Positions 1-4,727 of a stretch of 56,799 nucleotides of DNA are shown one piece after another. The position numbers and the translations under genes were made by a program. The notes under the pieces are model-generated. The model made no database searches and was not told the DNA's origin. It worked only from the letters and a program-made list of their open reading frames with translations. Numbering within the stretch: the stretch's first letter is position 1; every line of letters begins with the position of its first letter. This DNA is from Candidatus Kaiserbacteria bacterium RIFCSPHIGHO2_02_FULL_49_34 (lineage in GTDB: Bacteria > Patescibacteriota > Minisyncoccia > Phycocordibacterales > UBA918). The stretch spans positions 1 through 56,799 of the forward strand of contig MFLE01000018.1 of NCBI GenBank assembly GCA_001781205.1, in the 5' to 3' direction.

Positions 1-46
1 CCCGCTTGCACCGGGGAGGTAGCGGGTTCAAGTCCTGTCGGGTCCA
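1..46 (+). tRNA. tRNA-Ala(TGC), 3' part only (truncated by window edge)
   Basis: Anticodon arm CCCG-CTTGCAC-CGGGG (TGC), T-arm GCGGG-TTCAAGT-CCTGT, acceptor CGGGTCC-A with T70, compatible with G3:U70 alanine identity. Confidence 0.8.
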
Positions 47-273
47 CAAAGACATAAAACCAACGCGTCTAGCGTTGGTTTTATTCTGTCTTTGTGAGAC
101 CCGACAGGACTTGAACGCCGGAGCCGGTATACAAGATTGTTACTGATACGAAGCTTTAGCGTAGTACGGTAACAATACTTGTCGGCGAGGCGGGGTCGGC
201 AACGCTTAGTATTTTTGGAGCGGCAGCGAACAACAAATACTTAGCGATTGTGACCAAGTCCTGTCGGGTCCAC
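30..273 (+). repeat. tRNA-tail-nested structured element downstream of tRNA-Ala
   Basis: tRNA tail AAGTCCTGTCGGGTCCAC (30-47); hairpin CACAAAGACA...TGTCTTTGTG; antisense tail GACCCGACAGGACTTGAAC (98-116) + GCCGGAG; internal stems ACAAGATTGTTAC/GTAACAATACTTGT and GCTTAGTATTT/AAATACTTAGC; GTGACC + exact direct tail copy 256-273. Confidence 0.75.
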
Positions 274-441
274 TGCCACCAACAGCGACTAGGCCCGCCC
301 CAAACAACTCCTGAATTCAAGAAATTAATGCAATAATTCCAGAGAATTAAGAATCTAACATATGGAGAGCCGACACGCCTCTTGCTCTAGCTCTGGATCC
401 CGCCAGCATGACAAATGTTAGGTACAATGTTTTAAATCGAC

Positions 442-469
442 TAATGGTTAAAATCGATTTTAACCATTA
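442..469. repeat. 28-nt palindrome TAATGGTTAAAATCGATTTTAACCATTA
   Basis: Perfect inverted repeat; related copy at 21205-21232 with compensatory stem changes. Confidence 0.8.
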
Positions 470-695
470 TCTATTTTAGAGAATTCCACCCCCATTTTGT
501 ACCCCAGGGCAGCCTCTCTTGGTACTCCGTACCAATTCACCTCCTCATCCAGGAGGGATCCAGATTCAAAGCGGTGTTCACTAGTCTTCTTTTGTTGTTC
601 TGTAAAATAGAAACCCCCTAGTAGTGTTACATTTAATTTCTGGACTGAGGCACTTAGAGCTCACCATTTCACCAAACCTGCGGTATACTACCCCC

Positions 696-1142
696 ATGAA
701 TGAATCACCACAACAGTCACTTGATTCGACGCTTAGTAACGAGATGTATGTATATCAAGGGAAGACATACGCACGGAAGCGTCTGTATAAGACATCGTCT
801 CTTAAGACGATGCTTATCGGCGTGTATATTGCGATAATGCTTGTGGTGATTGGCGGGGTTGCGGCATGGTCTCTTGGGGTGTCGATTACGCTCCCAAATT
901 TCTTACTGGGAATTGAAGATACTGCGCCGATGGTGCAGGTACGTGAGCGTGGGGCGGCACCGGTGACCGCTCCTGCAGCGGTTGCAACAACAACGGAAGC
1001 AGAAGGGCAGGTGGAGACGTCCGTTGAGGTTTTGGATGACAGTGCGACAAGTACTGCGACAACGACTGATGCGGTAGAGTCCGTACAAACCTCCGCCGAA
1101 GTGCTTGCTGCAACCAGTACGGAGGCCGAGACGACTCCGTAA
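696..1142 (+). CDS. Hypothetical single-TM membrane protein with Thr/Ala/Glu-rich tail
   Basis: ORF trimmed to ATG at 696 (MNESPQQS...), 6 nt after a TATACT box; hydrophobic segment TMLIGVYIAIMLVVIGGVAAW. Confidence 0.65.
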   Translation: MNESPQQSLDSTLSNEMYVYQGKTYARKRLYKTSSLKTMLIGVYIAIMLVVIGGVAAWSLGVSITLPNFLLGIEDTAPMVQVRERGAAPVTAPAAVATTTEAEGQVETSVEVLDDSATSTATTTDAVESVQTSAEVLAATSTEAETTP

Positions 1143-1181
1143 ACATAACAAAAGCCGCAGTGAAGCGGCTTTTGTTATGTT
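1142..1181. terminator. Hairpin AACATAACAAAAGCCGC(agtga)GCGGCTTTTGTTATGTT
   Basis: Near-perfect inverted repeat between convergent units. Confidence 0.7.
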
Positions 1182-1431
1182 GGTAGCGGGACTTGGAATC
1201 GAACCAGGGTTGCTCCGCGGAGGTCATGAGTCTATCTTGCGAGATACCCTAATCTCCACCTATCCCTGCACAGAAAATACCAAGCTGAATGCCTGGTATT
1301 TTCATTGGTAGCGGGACCTGGAATCGAACCAGGGTTGCTTCGCGGAGGTTATGAGTCTACATTGCGAGGTACTTATAATCTCCACCTATCCCTGCACAGA
1401 AAATACCAAGCGTGATGCCTGGCATTTTCAT
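1181..1431 (-). repeat. Two tandem degenerate tRNA-Met-like units (about 125 bp each) with terminator-like hairpins, downstream of the intact tRNA
   Basis: 1181-1305 and 1306-1431 each keep the T-arm/acceptor 3' half ACCCTGGTTCGATTCCAGGTCCCGCTACCA (C>T variant in unit 1) and GAAAATRCC...GGTATTTTC hairpins, but the 5' acceptor and anticodon stem are broken. Confidence 0.75.
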
Positions 1432-1505
1432 TGGTAGCGGGACCTGGAATCGAACCAGGGTCTTGAGGTTATGAGCCTCACGAGGTACCTCTCCTCTATC
1501 CCGCT
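1432..1505 (-). tRNA. tRNA-Met or tRNA-Ile2 (CAT), CCA encoded
   Basis: Revcomp AGCGGGA TA GAGGAGAGGTACCTC G TGAGG CTCATAA CCTCA AGAC CCTGG TTCGATT CCAGG TCCCGCT ACCA folds as a cloverleaf. Confidence 0.88.
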
Positions 1506-1617
1506 ATGTATTGTTACTTCAACAGCGTAATTCTGCTATTTTGTTCCAGTACCATAGCAGAAGTTTATCAAAAAGTCCAGTCTTTTAAGCCTTATATATC
1601 ATGGTATAGTGTCAGGT

Positions 1618-2634
1618 ATGTTAGAAAAATTCTTCGGAGCAGGGAAGATTGGTATAGACCTTGGAACGACGAGTGTGCTTGTGTATGTGCCAGGAAGGGG
1701 GGTAGTAACCTATGAACCCTCTGTGGTGGCGGTTTCCGACGACCAACAGATTCTTGCGGTGGGTGATGAAGCGAAGCGTATGATTGGACGTACGCCGGAG
1801 CATATTCGTGCGTATCGCCCGATGAAGGATGGGGTGATTGCGGACTATCGTGTAACAGAAGCGATGCTTCGGTACTTTTTGCGGCAGGCGTGTGGACGAT
1901 TTAATCTACGCAGACCTGATGTGCTGGTGTCGGTGCCGTCGGGGGTATCTTCAACTGAAAAGCGCGCAGTGATTGAAGCGGCACTTAATGCCGGGGCAAA
2001 GAATGCATATGTGCTCAAGGAGCCTATTCTTGCAGCGCTTGGTGCAGGACTTCCCATTTACGAACCGCGCGGTCACCTTATTGTCGACATTGGTGGCGGC
2101 ACGACAGATGCTGCGGTGATTTCACTTGGTTCAATCGTTGCTGCGACATCGGTACGCTGCGCAGGGAATAAAATTGATGCCACGATTGTCGATTATGTCA
2201 AGAAGACCTACAATTTGGCAATTGGTGAGAAGACTGCAGAGGATATTAAAATTGGTATCGGTTCAGCACTTCCCGTGGAAGAAGAGCTTTCGATGGAAGT
2301 GAAGGGCCGTGACTTGATGTCAGGACTCCCGCGTACTATAGAGCTTAAGACGAACGAGGTCGTGCGTGCCACGCAGCGAGAGCTGCGTGAGATTGTTGGT
2401 GCGATTAAGGCGGTGTTTCAAGATACGCCTCCAGAACTTGCGGCAGACATTATTGACTACGGGATTATTCTTACGGGCGGTTCGTCACAGCTCCGTAACC
2501 TTGCCGAGTTCGTGAAGCGTCGCACTGGCGTGAAAACACAAATGGCGGATCAGGCGCAGTTTTGTGTGGTGAAGGGGACAGGTATCGCTTTGCAACATCT
2601 AGATACCTATAAACAAGCTCTCATTAGAAAGTGA
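1618..2634 (+). CDS. mreB: Rod shape-determining protein MreB
   Basis: KIGIDLGTTSVLVYVPGRGVV, VDIGGGTTDAAVISLG, GIILTGGSSQLRNL; actin-like ATPase. TATAGT box 7 nt before ATG 1618 (GTG 1609 alternative). Confidence 0.93.
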   Translation: MLEKFFGAGKIGIDLGTTSVLVYVPGRGVVTYEPSVVAVSDDQQILAVGDEAKRMIGRTPEHIRAYRPMKDGVIADYRVTEAMLRYFLRQACGRFNLRRPDVLVSVPSGVSSTEKRAVIEAALNAGAKNAYVLKEPILAALGAGLPIYEPRGHLIVDIGGGTTDAAVISLGSIVAATSVRCAGNKIDATIVDYVKKTYNLAIGEKTAEDIKIGIGSALPVEEELSMEVKGRDLMSGLPRTIELKTNEVVRATQRELREIVGAIKAVFQDTPPELAADIIDYGIILTGGSSQLRNLAEFVKRRTGVKTQMADQAQFCVVKGTGIALQHLDTYKQALIRK

Positions 2635-2701
2635 TTCTTCCAAGGTATGCTGAGATATTTGCGATTGTAATTTTTCGTGATTTATGTATAATGCGGACAC
2701 C

Positions 2702-2974
2702 ATGGTACATGAGAAGGACGACACAGAAGCGCTTCGGCGAGAGCTGCGTGAACTTCGCGCAGAATTTGATGTCACTTCGTCTTTGGTAAAAAAGATACAC
2801 CGCCATACCGTGACGGCTACCGCGATGCGGTTCCTCTGGCTTGGTATCATTGTGGGTATTCCGATTATTGCGTACATTTTTGCAGGCTCGTTCATCGAGA
2901 GTGCAGCAAATTATCTCAATCAGCAAATTCATAATGTGCTCGAGGTGTATATACAGCAGTCTACGGGAAGATAA
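2702..2974 (+). CDS. Small hypothetical protein with coiled-coil N-term and TM segment
   Basis: ORF trimmed to ATG 2702; EALRRELRELRAEF, then a hydrophobic helix. Confidence 0.6.
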   Translation: MVHEKDDTEALRRELRELRAEFDVTSSLVKKIHRHTVTATAMRFLWLGIIVGIPIIAYIFAGSFIESAANYLNQQIHNVLEVYIQQSTGR

Positions 2975-2983
2975 TTTCCAAAC

Positions 2984-3120
2984 GCTTGAGTAGCTCAGCC
3001 CTAGATCGCCGGCCGCTAGCGCGGACCGGGCCGGCGAAGCTGCTAAGGATGTCCGCCTCCGCGAACGCTACTTAAAGTGTTCGCTAGCGCGAACACGGCA
3101 GATAGAGCACTTGTTGCATG
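2984..3120 (+). repeat. Partial tRNA-Phe 5' copy interrupted in the D-loop by a structured GC-rich insert
   Basis: GCTTGAGTAGCTCAG (2984-2998) identical to tRNA-Phe 5' end at 3147; TAGAGCAC (3103-3110) resumes after about 100 bp containing CGCCGGCC/GGGCCGGCG and GTGTTCG/CGAACAC stems. Confidence 0.6.
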
Positions 3121-3146
3121 GAATGCTGTAGTATAAAATTATATAT

Positions 3147-3219
3147 GCTTGAGTAGCTCAGTTGGTAGAGCACTCCCCTGAAGAGGGAGGGGTCACCAGT
3201 TCGACCCTGGTCTCAAGCA
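3147..3219 (+). tRNA. tRNA-Phe(GAA)
   Basis: GCTTGAG TA GCTC AGTTGGTA GAGC A CTCCC CTGAAGA GGGAG GGGTC ACCAG TTCGACC CTGGT CTCAAGC A. Confidence 0.93.
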
Positions 3220-3535
3220 CAGTAACAAAATAATAGCCGGCTTTGCCGGCTTTATTTTGTTACTGTGCTTGAGAAGAAAGGCGCCTGCGCGCCTTTTGTC
3301 CAGGGTCGAACGCCGGAGTCATGTTTTTCTGACCTCGGGGGAAGAAAAACAGACGAGGCGGGTGAGAAGGTCTGGGAGACCTTCGTAAGGGGTTGTCGAC
3401 AGATTATGAGGCGGATGCCGAAATAATATGTCATACAACCTGAACAGAATCTGTAAGATTGGGCAGTGCTTAGACTTTTATGAGCATAGCGAAATAAAAG
3501 ACTTAGCAACTGTGACCGACCCTGGTCTCAAGCAC
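3203..3535 (+). repeat. tRNA-tail-nested structured element downstream of tRNA-Phe
   Basis: tRNA tail GACCCTGGTCTCAAGCAC (3203-3220); hairpin; antisense tail GTGCTTGAGA..CCAGGGTCGAAC (3265-3311, with a 25-nt insertion) + GCCGGAG; stems GTTTTTCT/AGAAAAAC, AAGGTCT/AGACCTT, GCTTAGacTTTTAT/ATAAAAGacTTAGC; GTGACC + exact direct tail copy 3518-3535. Confidence 0.78.
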
Positions 3536-3571
3536 AGATACTACTCACGCCTCATGGCATGAGTATGTTAT

Positions 3572-3604
3572 AAAAAGCACATACACATTTGTATGTGCTT
3601 TTTA
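3572..3604. terminator. Hairpin AAAAAGCACATAC(acattt)GTATGTGCTTTTT
   Basis: Inverted repeat with A/T flanks. Confidence 0.7.
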
Positions 3605-3632
3605 TGTGGTGTTCATATGCTATACTCACGAC

Positions 3633-4727
3633 ATGGAAAAGATACGAGCTTTTATTGCGTGGGGGAAGAAGAACCAGCATCACTTGTTGTCGGCTTCGTT
3701 TTTCGTGGGTTTTTTGATTGATAGTCTGACCCTCAATCGTGTCGATGATGCGCTCGATAATATTATCCTTGCGTCATACATGAGTATCATGATGATATCG
3801 ACACTCGTGCTGTATGCGGCGCTTGCGACAAAGTTGCCAGATCGGATTGTGCCGTTTTGCCGTGACTACATGCCGTACCTGATGCAGTTCGCGTTCGGTG
3901 GTGTGCTTTCGGGTATGCTTATTTTCTACAGTCGTTCTGGCTCATGGGAAGCAAGTTGGCCATTCTTGGTTATTATCATTGGTGTTATCGCGGGTAATGA
4001 ACTTCTTTCACGACGTGCTGAACGGCTTGTCTTTAATCTCTCAGTGCTGTTTATTGCGCTCTTTTCATACACCGCGCTTATTATTCCCGTGCTGATCGGA
4101 CGAATGGGAGAAGTGGTGTTTGTGATTAGTAGCATTATTGCCCTCGGTGTTTTTATAGTGTTCGTACAGGCACTTATCGCCATTGTGCCGAATTTCATCA
4201 GGCTTCATTTGCGCTCAATTGTATTTGCCGTTGCAGGCATTTTTGCTACGATGCAGTTTCTCTATTTTGCAAACCTGATTCCGCCAATCCCACTCTCGCT
4301 CAAAGACATCGGCATCTATCATAAAGTGGAGCGAACACAGGAGGGGAATTATCTCTTAACCTACGAGCGGCAGGCATGGTGGCGCTTTTGGAGTCGTCCA
4401 GATAAAACGTTTACTTCAAGCGGGGGAAGTGTGCCGCATTGTTATTCGTCGGTCTTTGCGCCGACAAAACTAGCAACGGCGATTGTGCATGAGTGGCAGC
4501 AATATGATGAAGCGTCTGGAGAATGGCTGTCTCGTAATACGGTCTCCTTCGGCATTGCGGGCGGCCGCGCAGAAGGGTATCGTGGTTATTCATATAAAGA
4601 AAGTTACACGCAAGGGAAGTGGCGGTGCCTCGTACGTACAGAGCGCGGGCAAACAATAGGCTATACAACCTTCCATATTGGCGAGAAGTCCATTATTTCC
4701 CTTGATCTTGAAACGGTTATCAAGTAA
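3633..4727 (+). CDS. Hypothetical polytopic membrane protein (DUF2914-like C-terminal part possible)
   Basis: Several hydrophobic helices; ATG 3633 lies 6 nt after TATACT. Confidence 0.65.
   Translation: MEKIRAFIAWGKKNQHHLLSASFFVGFLIDSLTLNRVDDALDNIILASYMSIMMISTLVLYAALATKLPDRIVPFCRDYMPYLMQFAFGGVLSGMLIFYSRSGSWEASWPFLVIIIGVIAGNELLSRRAERLVFNLSVLFIALFSYTALIIPVLIGRMGEVVFVISSIIALGVFIVFVQALIAIVPNFIRLHLRSIVFAVAGIFATMQFLYFANLIPPIPLSLKDIGIYHKVERTQEGNYLLTYERQAWWRFWSRPDKTFTSSGGSVPHCYSSVFAPTKLATAIVHEWQQYDEASGEWLSRNTVSFGIAGGRAEGYRGYSYKESYTQGKWRCLVRTERGQTIGYTTFHIGEKSIISLDLETVIK

Follow-up and report, generated by a model that had tools for sequence, protein, structure and literature searches.

What kind of element follows a tRNA gene whose 3′ end is found twice in sense and, between the two, once in antisense? 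We addressed this question for the tRNA-Phe (GAA) gene of the window, the whole 56,799-nucleotide stretch of DNA analysed here; it corresponds to contig C18 in a genome (G000) that totals 828 kb in 26 contigs, and a sister genome (G001) served for comparison. The gene, the target of the element, lies at 3147-3220 (ARAGORN and the Rfam tRNA model) on the + strand, as do all parts of the unit, and the GTTC of its T-loop ends at 3202. The 18 nt that follow (R or tail1, 3203-3220) are the restored 3′ end of the tRNA as well as the first 18 nt of the unit, and they recur as a direct repeat at 3518-3535 (tail2), which the repeat search and the sister-genome comparison point to as the displaced original end. 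A long hairpin (hp0, 3211-3274), detected by inverted-repeat search and in both DNA and RNA folds, starts inside the tRNA tail and has perfect arms of 23 bp around an 18-nt centre with a GC-rich, terminator-like stem. The reverse complement of TTC plus tail (S′, 3265-3311) appears among the inverted repeats in two pieces (3265-3274 and 3300-3311) with a hairpin between them (hp0b, 3275-3299); other loci show the same split, and a small hairpin interrupting the antisense arm recurs across the family. GAACGCCGGAG is located at 3308-3318 and core hairpin 1 (CGCCGGAG...CGAGGCGGG), delimited by alignments and our covariance model R1, at 3311-3361. Core hairpin 2 (GCTTAG...ACTTAGC, 3461-3517; R1 match 3434-3517, E = 1.6e-6) ends in GTGACC (3512-3517), the right boundary of the unit. 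At this locus the repeat search gave a direct repeat of 21 nt and a perfect inverted repeat of 23 nt.

Every block of the tail, antisense, tail architecture listed for tRNA-Phe in the original prediction was found where it had been placed. The Phe element had further been described as having the same architecture as one at tRNA-Ala, which holds in part. The Ala copy at the start of the window (30-273, +) is the canonical compact unit, composed of tail1 (30-47), hp0 (48-96), S′ (97-115), core (113-255, the extent of the R1 match, E = 4.8e-31) and tail2 (256-273). Both copies share the conserved blocks, but the Phe copy is atypical and enlarged: its antisense arm is split, and an additional stretch of about 100 nt (3362-3460, +) that forms more hairpins, seen by alignment and folding in this copy only, separates its two core hairpins. 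The Phe arrangement is far beyond chance. Antisense runs of at least 10 nt matching a tRNA's own tail occur at 20 of 69 tRNA loci in the two genomes, and swapping tails between loci as a control gave runs of at least 12 nt in 13 of 4314 trials.

Other tRNA-associated inserts lie close by in the window. At 2987-3136, a different structured insert splits a partial 5′ tRNA-Phe copy in its D-loop (CTGCTAAGGATGTCNGCCTCCGC...GCAGATAGAGCAC), and inserts of this type are also found, sometimes inverted, near Lys, Thr-TGT, Tyr and Lys-CTT genes (L008, L053, L056, L074, L085). On the − strand, 1192-1505 holds a tRNA-Met (1432-1505) followed by two degenerate 3′-half copies, both with an insert in the middle and a full tail at the end.

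The idea that one core joined to different tRNA tails makes a family, rather than a local accident, is borne out genome-wide. GAACGCCGGAG has 8 matches in the 828 kb genome, all directly 3′ of tRNA genes, compared with 0 for the reversed pattern. A search with R1, which was built on the 142-nt core, recovered 13 copies, each of which immediately follows the 3′ end of a tRNA gene (Asp, Gly-TCC, Gly-GCC, Val-GAC, Val-TAC, Leu-GAG, Leu-TAA, Leu-CAA, Ala, Lys, Arg-GCG, Trp and Phe). R1 units were present in 40 of 59 genomes of the same order, at up to 16 copies per genome, and a phylum-wide sample searched with stricter filters had matches in only 3 of 193 genomes, all of the same class. The family is thus widespread within a single order of Patescibacteria but hardly present in the rest of the phylum. 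An 18-mer pattern found at least 117 further stretches in GTDB genomes; among the matches listed were Kaiser-, Yonath-, Nomura- and Campbellbacteria, and nearly all titles among them were Patescibacteria lineages or unnamed MAGs. No viral contig matched in two pattern scans. We did not find a description of the family in the open-access literature, and a paper on gene exchange in Patescibacteria mentions neither tRNA nor integrons (PMC12455944), so this is apparently a large family that has so far gone undescribed.

The predicted enrichment of the shared blocks at tRNAs extends beyond this genome. Within 400 nt of 78 further R1 hits, we found a same-strand tRNA ending upstream in 52, a downstream tRNA in 8 and one on the opposite strand in 1. 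The remaining hits are on cut contigs, are second units of arrays, or lie at the 3′ ends of ftsZ (L031, L037, L043, L161, L175) and apparently topA (L176), names that come from translated gene ends read by eye. At these protein genes the gene end, and with it the C-terminus, is restored upstream, and the displaced copy follows GTGACC. We also observed a second family at the same T-loop sites (L166, L173, L190, L196, L198, L214, L224, L227), with a right-end hairpin of the type GAAAC-TGTAA-GTTTC, such that TTC is itself restored ahead of the second copy of the tail. Additional core types sharing the S′/S′′ architecture (GAAGACACGGAGC...GGGTC; GAAAAGAGCGCCTGGG...GTGACC) occur at L014 (Leu-TAA), L083 (Pro), L072 and L077, and among them are cases in which orthologous loci differ by a replaced hairpin 1.

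Which of the two tails is original, and whether the unit was inserted at all, could be read from the sister genome, with which G000 differs at several tRNAs. At tRNA-Leu-CAA, the stretch that immediately follows the tRNA in G001 aligns with what comes after tail2 in G000 (score 132; shuffles no higher than 29). G001 thus has the empty site, and the insertion was precise, separating the TTC of the T-loop from the tail; the original prediction had proposed just such a comparison. At Phe, the DNA after tail2 is orthologous to the DNA 3′ of the tRNA-Phe region in G001, a region that holds a different insert, and tail2 has a terminator of its own behind it at both Leu-TAA and Leu-CAA. Taken together, these observations indicate that tail2 is the original end and that everything from tail1 through the core is the insert. 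They also bear on whether the units are remnants of ordinary tRNA-integrating genomic islands, the attL/attR sites left after an island decayed. Direct repeats of 18 nt that restore a tRNA 3′ end are indeed typical of att sites. We nevertheless consider this origin very unlikely, given a precise small insertion that differs between sister genomes, a conserved and covarying core in hundreds of small copies, which also speaks against the core being a random leftover of a larger deleted element, a third, antisense copy matched to each tRNA, and one core serving many tRNA specificities.

Across the family, the unit reads in the order tRNA ...TTC | R, optional genes, hp0, S′, core hairpins 1 and 2, GTGRCC | R, with boundaries GTGRCC|GANTC and TTC|GANTC. 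The R at the unit start is a full replacement tail and the R after GTGRCC is the original one; because the unit begins with a copy of the right side of its target, the split gene is restored. hp0 is a hairpin with a bulge on its 3′ side, often with GCC..GTTGC around a terminator-like stem, and S′ is the reverse complement of TTC plus R, often split by a small hairpin. The target is mostly the T-loop TTC|GANTC and less often the acceptor end or the ftsZ and topA 3′ ends. In 68 T-loop-type units, pairing of S′ with S′′ across the junction was 0.79-0.90 over the first seven positions, 0.68 at the eighth and no more than about 0.5 further on, and shuffled partners paired much less, except at universally conserved tRNA positions. 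Unlike this match, which is best over the first 7-8 nt and then declines, the tRNA-adjacent tail is complete, so that all 18 nt are kept where the tRNA needs them. The junction pattern fits a short homology or crossover region combined with selection on a functional tRNA. At sites other than the T-loop, S′:S′′ complementarity is short, about 2-5 nt, which counts against the reading that we prefer below.

Beyond what had been predicted, the units pair in a DNA-like manner, carry genes, form arrays and occupy the ftsZ and topA 3′ ends. In 88 aligned cores, 91.7% of cells were paired, compared with about 35% in slid controls, in an alignment that was itself fitted to the model. Covariation was exceptional: 50 of 52 pairs changed on both sides, with 673 double-changed cells vs 190 when shuffled. 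G·T (G·U) made up 1.9% of standard pairs, and its 50 occurrences were about as frequent as those of A·C (32), whereas 190 tRNAs from the same loci had 6.5% G·T (a comparison in which the tRNA finder itself excludes A·C). Folding as DNA was highly significant, and two mismatches are conserved, a T·T in CTTAG/CTTAG and a G·T close to the base of hairpin 2. Most apical loops of this hairpin are GNA triloops, which account for 37 of 48 triloops and are unusually stable in DNA. The combination of strong covariation, few G·U pairs and GNA triloops suggests, from substitution patterns, that the core acts as folded DNA rather than RNA.

This pairing weighs on two RNA-based explanations. The units could encode a structured non-coding RNA transcribed together with the tRNA, for instance one acting in 3′-end maturation or attenuation through alternative pairings among tail1, antisense and tail2 that exclude one another. 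A strong, covarying + strand structure in fixed orientation 3′ of tRNAs, a terminator-like hp0, and the retention of hp0 without the core at G001 tRNA-Trp all speak for it. We consider it improbable nonetheless, since G·T pairs are scarce and hardly commoner than A·C mismatches, sister tRNAs lack the unit, units also sit at ftsZ and topA ends, and tRNA was the only convincing Rfam match in window positions 1-4000; the cargo units described below add a further difficulty. An RNA-guided element, in which R/S′ would lead to TTC-flanked targets as a guide and the core would serve as its scaffold in the manner of an omega-RNA or an IS110 bridge RNA, would account for S′ being the reverse complement of TTC plus R beside a two-hairpin scaffold and for a target address read from a stretch of 8-11 nt. 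No adjacent nuclease or transposase was seen, however, and the pairing is DNA-like, which leaves only a slim chance for such a guide. A group I intron, with S′ resembling an internal guide that pairs with both exons, was rejected, as the core has 100-142 nt, two hairpins only and no ribozyme core.

A search for far-downstream tail copies revealed seven R1-bounded units of 1.6-2.9 kb that carry genes, although cargo is absent from most genome copies. At tRNA-Gly-TCC, an OLD-like AAA/TOPRIM protein and an HTH protein are followed by three successive S′-core units (L229); other cargoes are a SET protein (L210), an ImmA/IrrE (M78)-HTH protein with DUF4411 (L236), DUF6671 (L224), a 530-aa large serine recombinase at about 435-2424 in a unit at tRNA-Gly-CCC (L170), and proteins of no known type (L193, L209). 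Despite the distance, 9-14 nt of the far-end S′ agree with the tRNA tail in most of these units. As this S′ stands at the far end of units of 1.6-2.9 kb, up to 2.6 kb from the tRNA, a purely local tRNA or terminator structure is ruled out, and with it a simple terminator or attenuator; the distance likewise argues against the non-coding RNA and makes local quasi-palindrome correction unlikely as the sole source of the S′ match. Tandem units were found at L027, L172, L227, L229 and L224, and a test for a following unit was positive in 6 of 82 cases vs 7 of 407 controls. The parts of the unit also appear to move separately. The Lys and Ala units have cores that are 98% identical, with 67% identity in S′ and 61% in hp0; G001 Gly-GCC and Val keep hp0 with a different hairpin 1; and G001 Trp keeps hp0-S′ with the core absent. 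These patterns indicate that cores are exchanged relative to the arms, and the last one hints at an additional local role of hp0/S′. Whole-unit movement only partly explains this independence of core and arm, a point against our preferred reading.

Given these data, the reading that we favor, at roughly even odds, is that the units are mobile cassettes working like integron cassettes, with a structure-read site, an address of tRNA T-loop homology, and a tyrosine recombinase. The stretch hp0-S′-hp1-hp2-R would fold as single-stranded or extruded DNA, and the folded form would be a structure-read recombination site comparable to the integron attC. The crossover or address region might consist of about 8 nt over which R is homologous to the tRNA. 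In the weakest step of the scheme, a tyrosine recombinase, most simply the XerA-like protein of G000, would insert and excise units and so give rise to arrays. The absence of any visible circular or excised unit form from the assemblies was counted against this reading, as were the lack of cargo in most genome copies and the retention of hp0/S′ where the core is lost.

G000 encodes a single tyrosine recombinase (PF00589) of XerA type, which passes the XerA model (239.6; cut-off 220) and fails integrase_gron (141.7; cut-off 265). Almost all relatives encode one or a small number of PF00589 recombinases. The three genomes without one also lack R1 units, but this co-absence is weak evidence because many genomes with a recombinase lack units too. 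A recombinase gene lies beside a unit at 1 of 30 loci checked: the sole tyrosine recombinase gene of G000 is about 1 kb beyond the tRNA-Gly-TCC unit (contig C13:1-2120), and at the 29 other loci recombinase and unit are not neighbours. The XerA-like recombinase, the only candidate found in G000, is therefore an unproven, hypothetical driver. Large serine recombinases are present in 36 of 59 order relatives and in L170, but we rejected them as drivers since none was found in G000 (PF07508, PF00239) or in G004.

Another type of enzyme, a single-strand-DNA transposase of IS200/IS605 or REP/RAYT type, would make the units non-autonomous, MITE-like transposons whose ends are hp1 with a 5′ GAA guide and hp2 with GGTC/GACC. 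Such elements would suit the pair of imperfect hairpins with their conserved mismatches and DNA-like pairing, the insertion 3′ of a short motif and the presence of Y1 transposases in 32 of 59 relatives. Yet no Y1 transposase (PF01797) was found in G000, G001 or several genomes with 4-10 copies (G004, G008, G011, G017, G020, G021), and recognition of 4-nt ends leaves both the R/S′ addressing over at least 8 nt and the cargo units unexplained, so that we regard this origin as unlikely.

Returning to the mobile-cassette reading, we tentatively propose, with somewhat less confidence than in the reading itself, a new class of gene cassettes in Patescibacteria that would combine a folded DNA site, genome-wide tRNA platforms, a tRNA-specific arm, tRNA repair, defence or toxin-antitoxin-type cargo and a host-encoded recombinase. 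Patescibacteria have tiny genomes, and how they acquire genes is poorly understood; widespread tRNA-anchored cassettes, if true, would offer a concrete route and would make tRNA 3′ ends the place to look for accessory genes. Structure-read recombination would then reach beyond integrons, with programmable-looking insertion sites in which one core goes with many tRNA addresses. The units may also account in part for tRNA pseudo-copies and for assemblies that break off at tRNAs.

How does this family compare with known systems? Like islands and phages that integrate at tRNAs by tyrosine integrases, the units target the stretch from T-loop to 3′ end, create direct repeats and restore the tRNA 3′ end. 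In contrast to these, they contain no tyrosine integrase (one of seven cargo units has the large serine recombinase), most copies measure 100-300 bp, an extra antisense att copy is present, and one core serves many tRNA specificities. REP/BIME-RAYT elements and IS200/IS605 ends resemble them in having short hairpins with conserved mismatches and in the recognition of folded single-stranded DNA, but differ in that G000 has no Y1 transposase and in the tRNA-tail homology address and gene cargo seen here. Some elements exploit host Xer recombinases, such as the CTX phage with its folded attP. A parallel would be that the only Xer protein of the host might act on a folded DNA site here as well, although our units do not lie at a dif site and no dif-like sequence was identified. 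The closest likeness is to integron cassettes, whose arrays are built by a tyrosine recombinase that recognises attC in its folded, single-stranded form (PMC9668308). Integron cassettes too are small units with or without ORFs, set in arrays and bounded by a folded imperfect-hairpin site, and here we likewise find tandem units with ORFs between sites, with most copies lacking ORFs. As in attC, what precedes the hairpin is complementary to what follows the cut, and the site found here is folded and covarying. Unlike in integrons, there is no IntI in G000, whose one tyrosine recombinase falls below the integrase_gron cut-off; the boundaries are GTGRCC|GANTC and TTC|GANTC rather than those of attC (RYYYAAC...GTTRRRY, cut G|TT); and no attI platform lies beside the recombinase, which has a unit nearby at 1/30 loci. 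The targets are instead the tRNA genes themselves, to each of which the unit brings a replacement tail. With IntI, attI and attC ends thus missing, the units are by these tests neither integrons nor REP/RAYT or IS200/IS605 elements, and we describe them as a family that is integron-like in its working.
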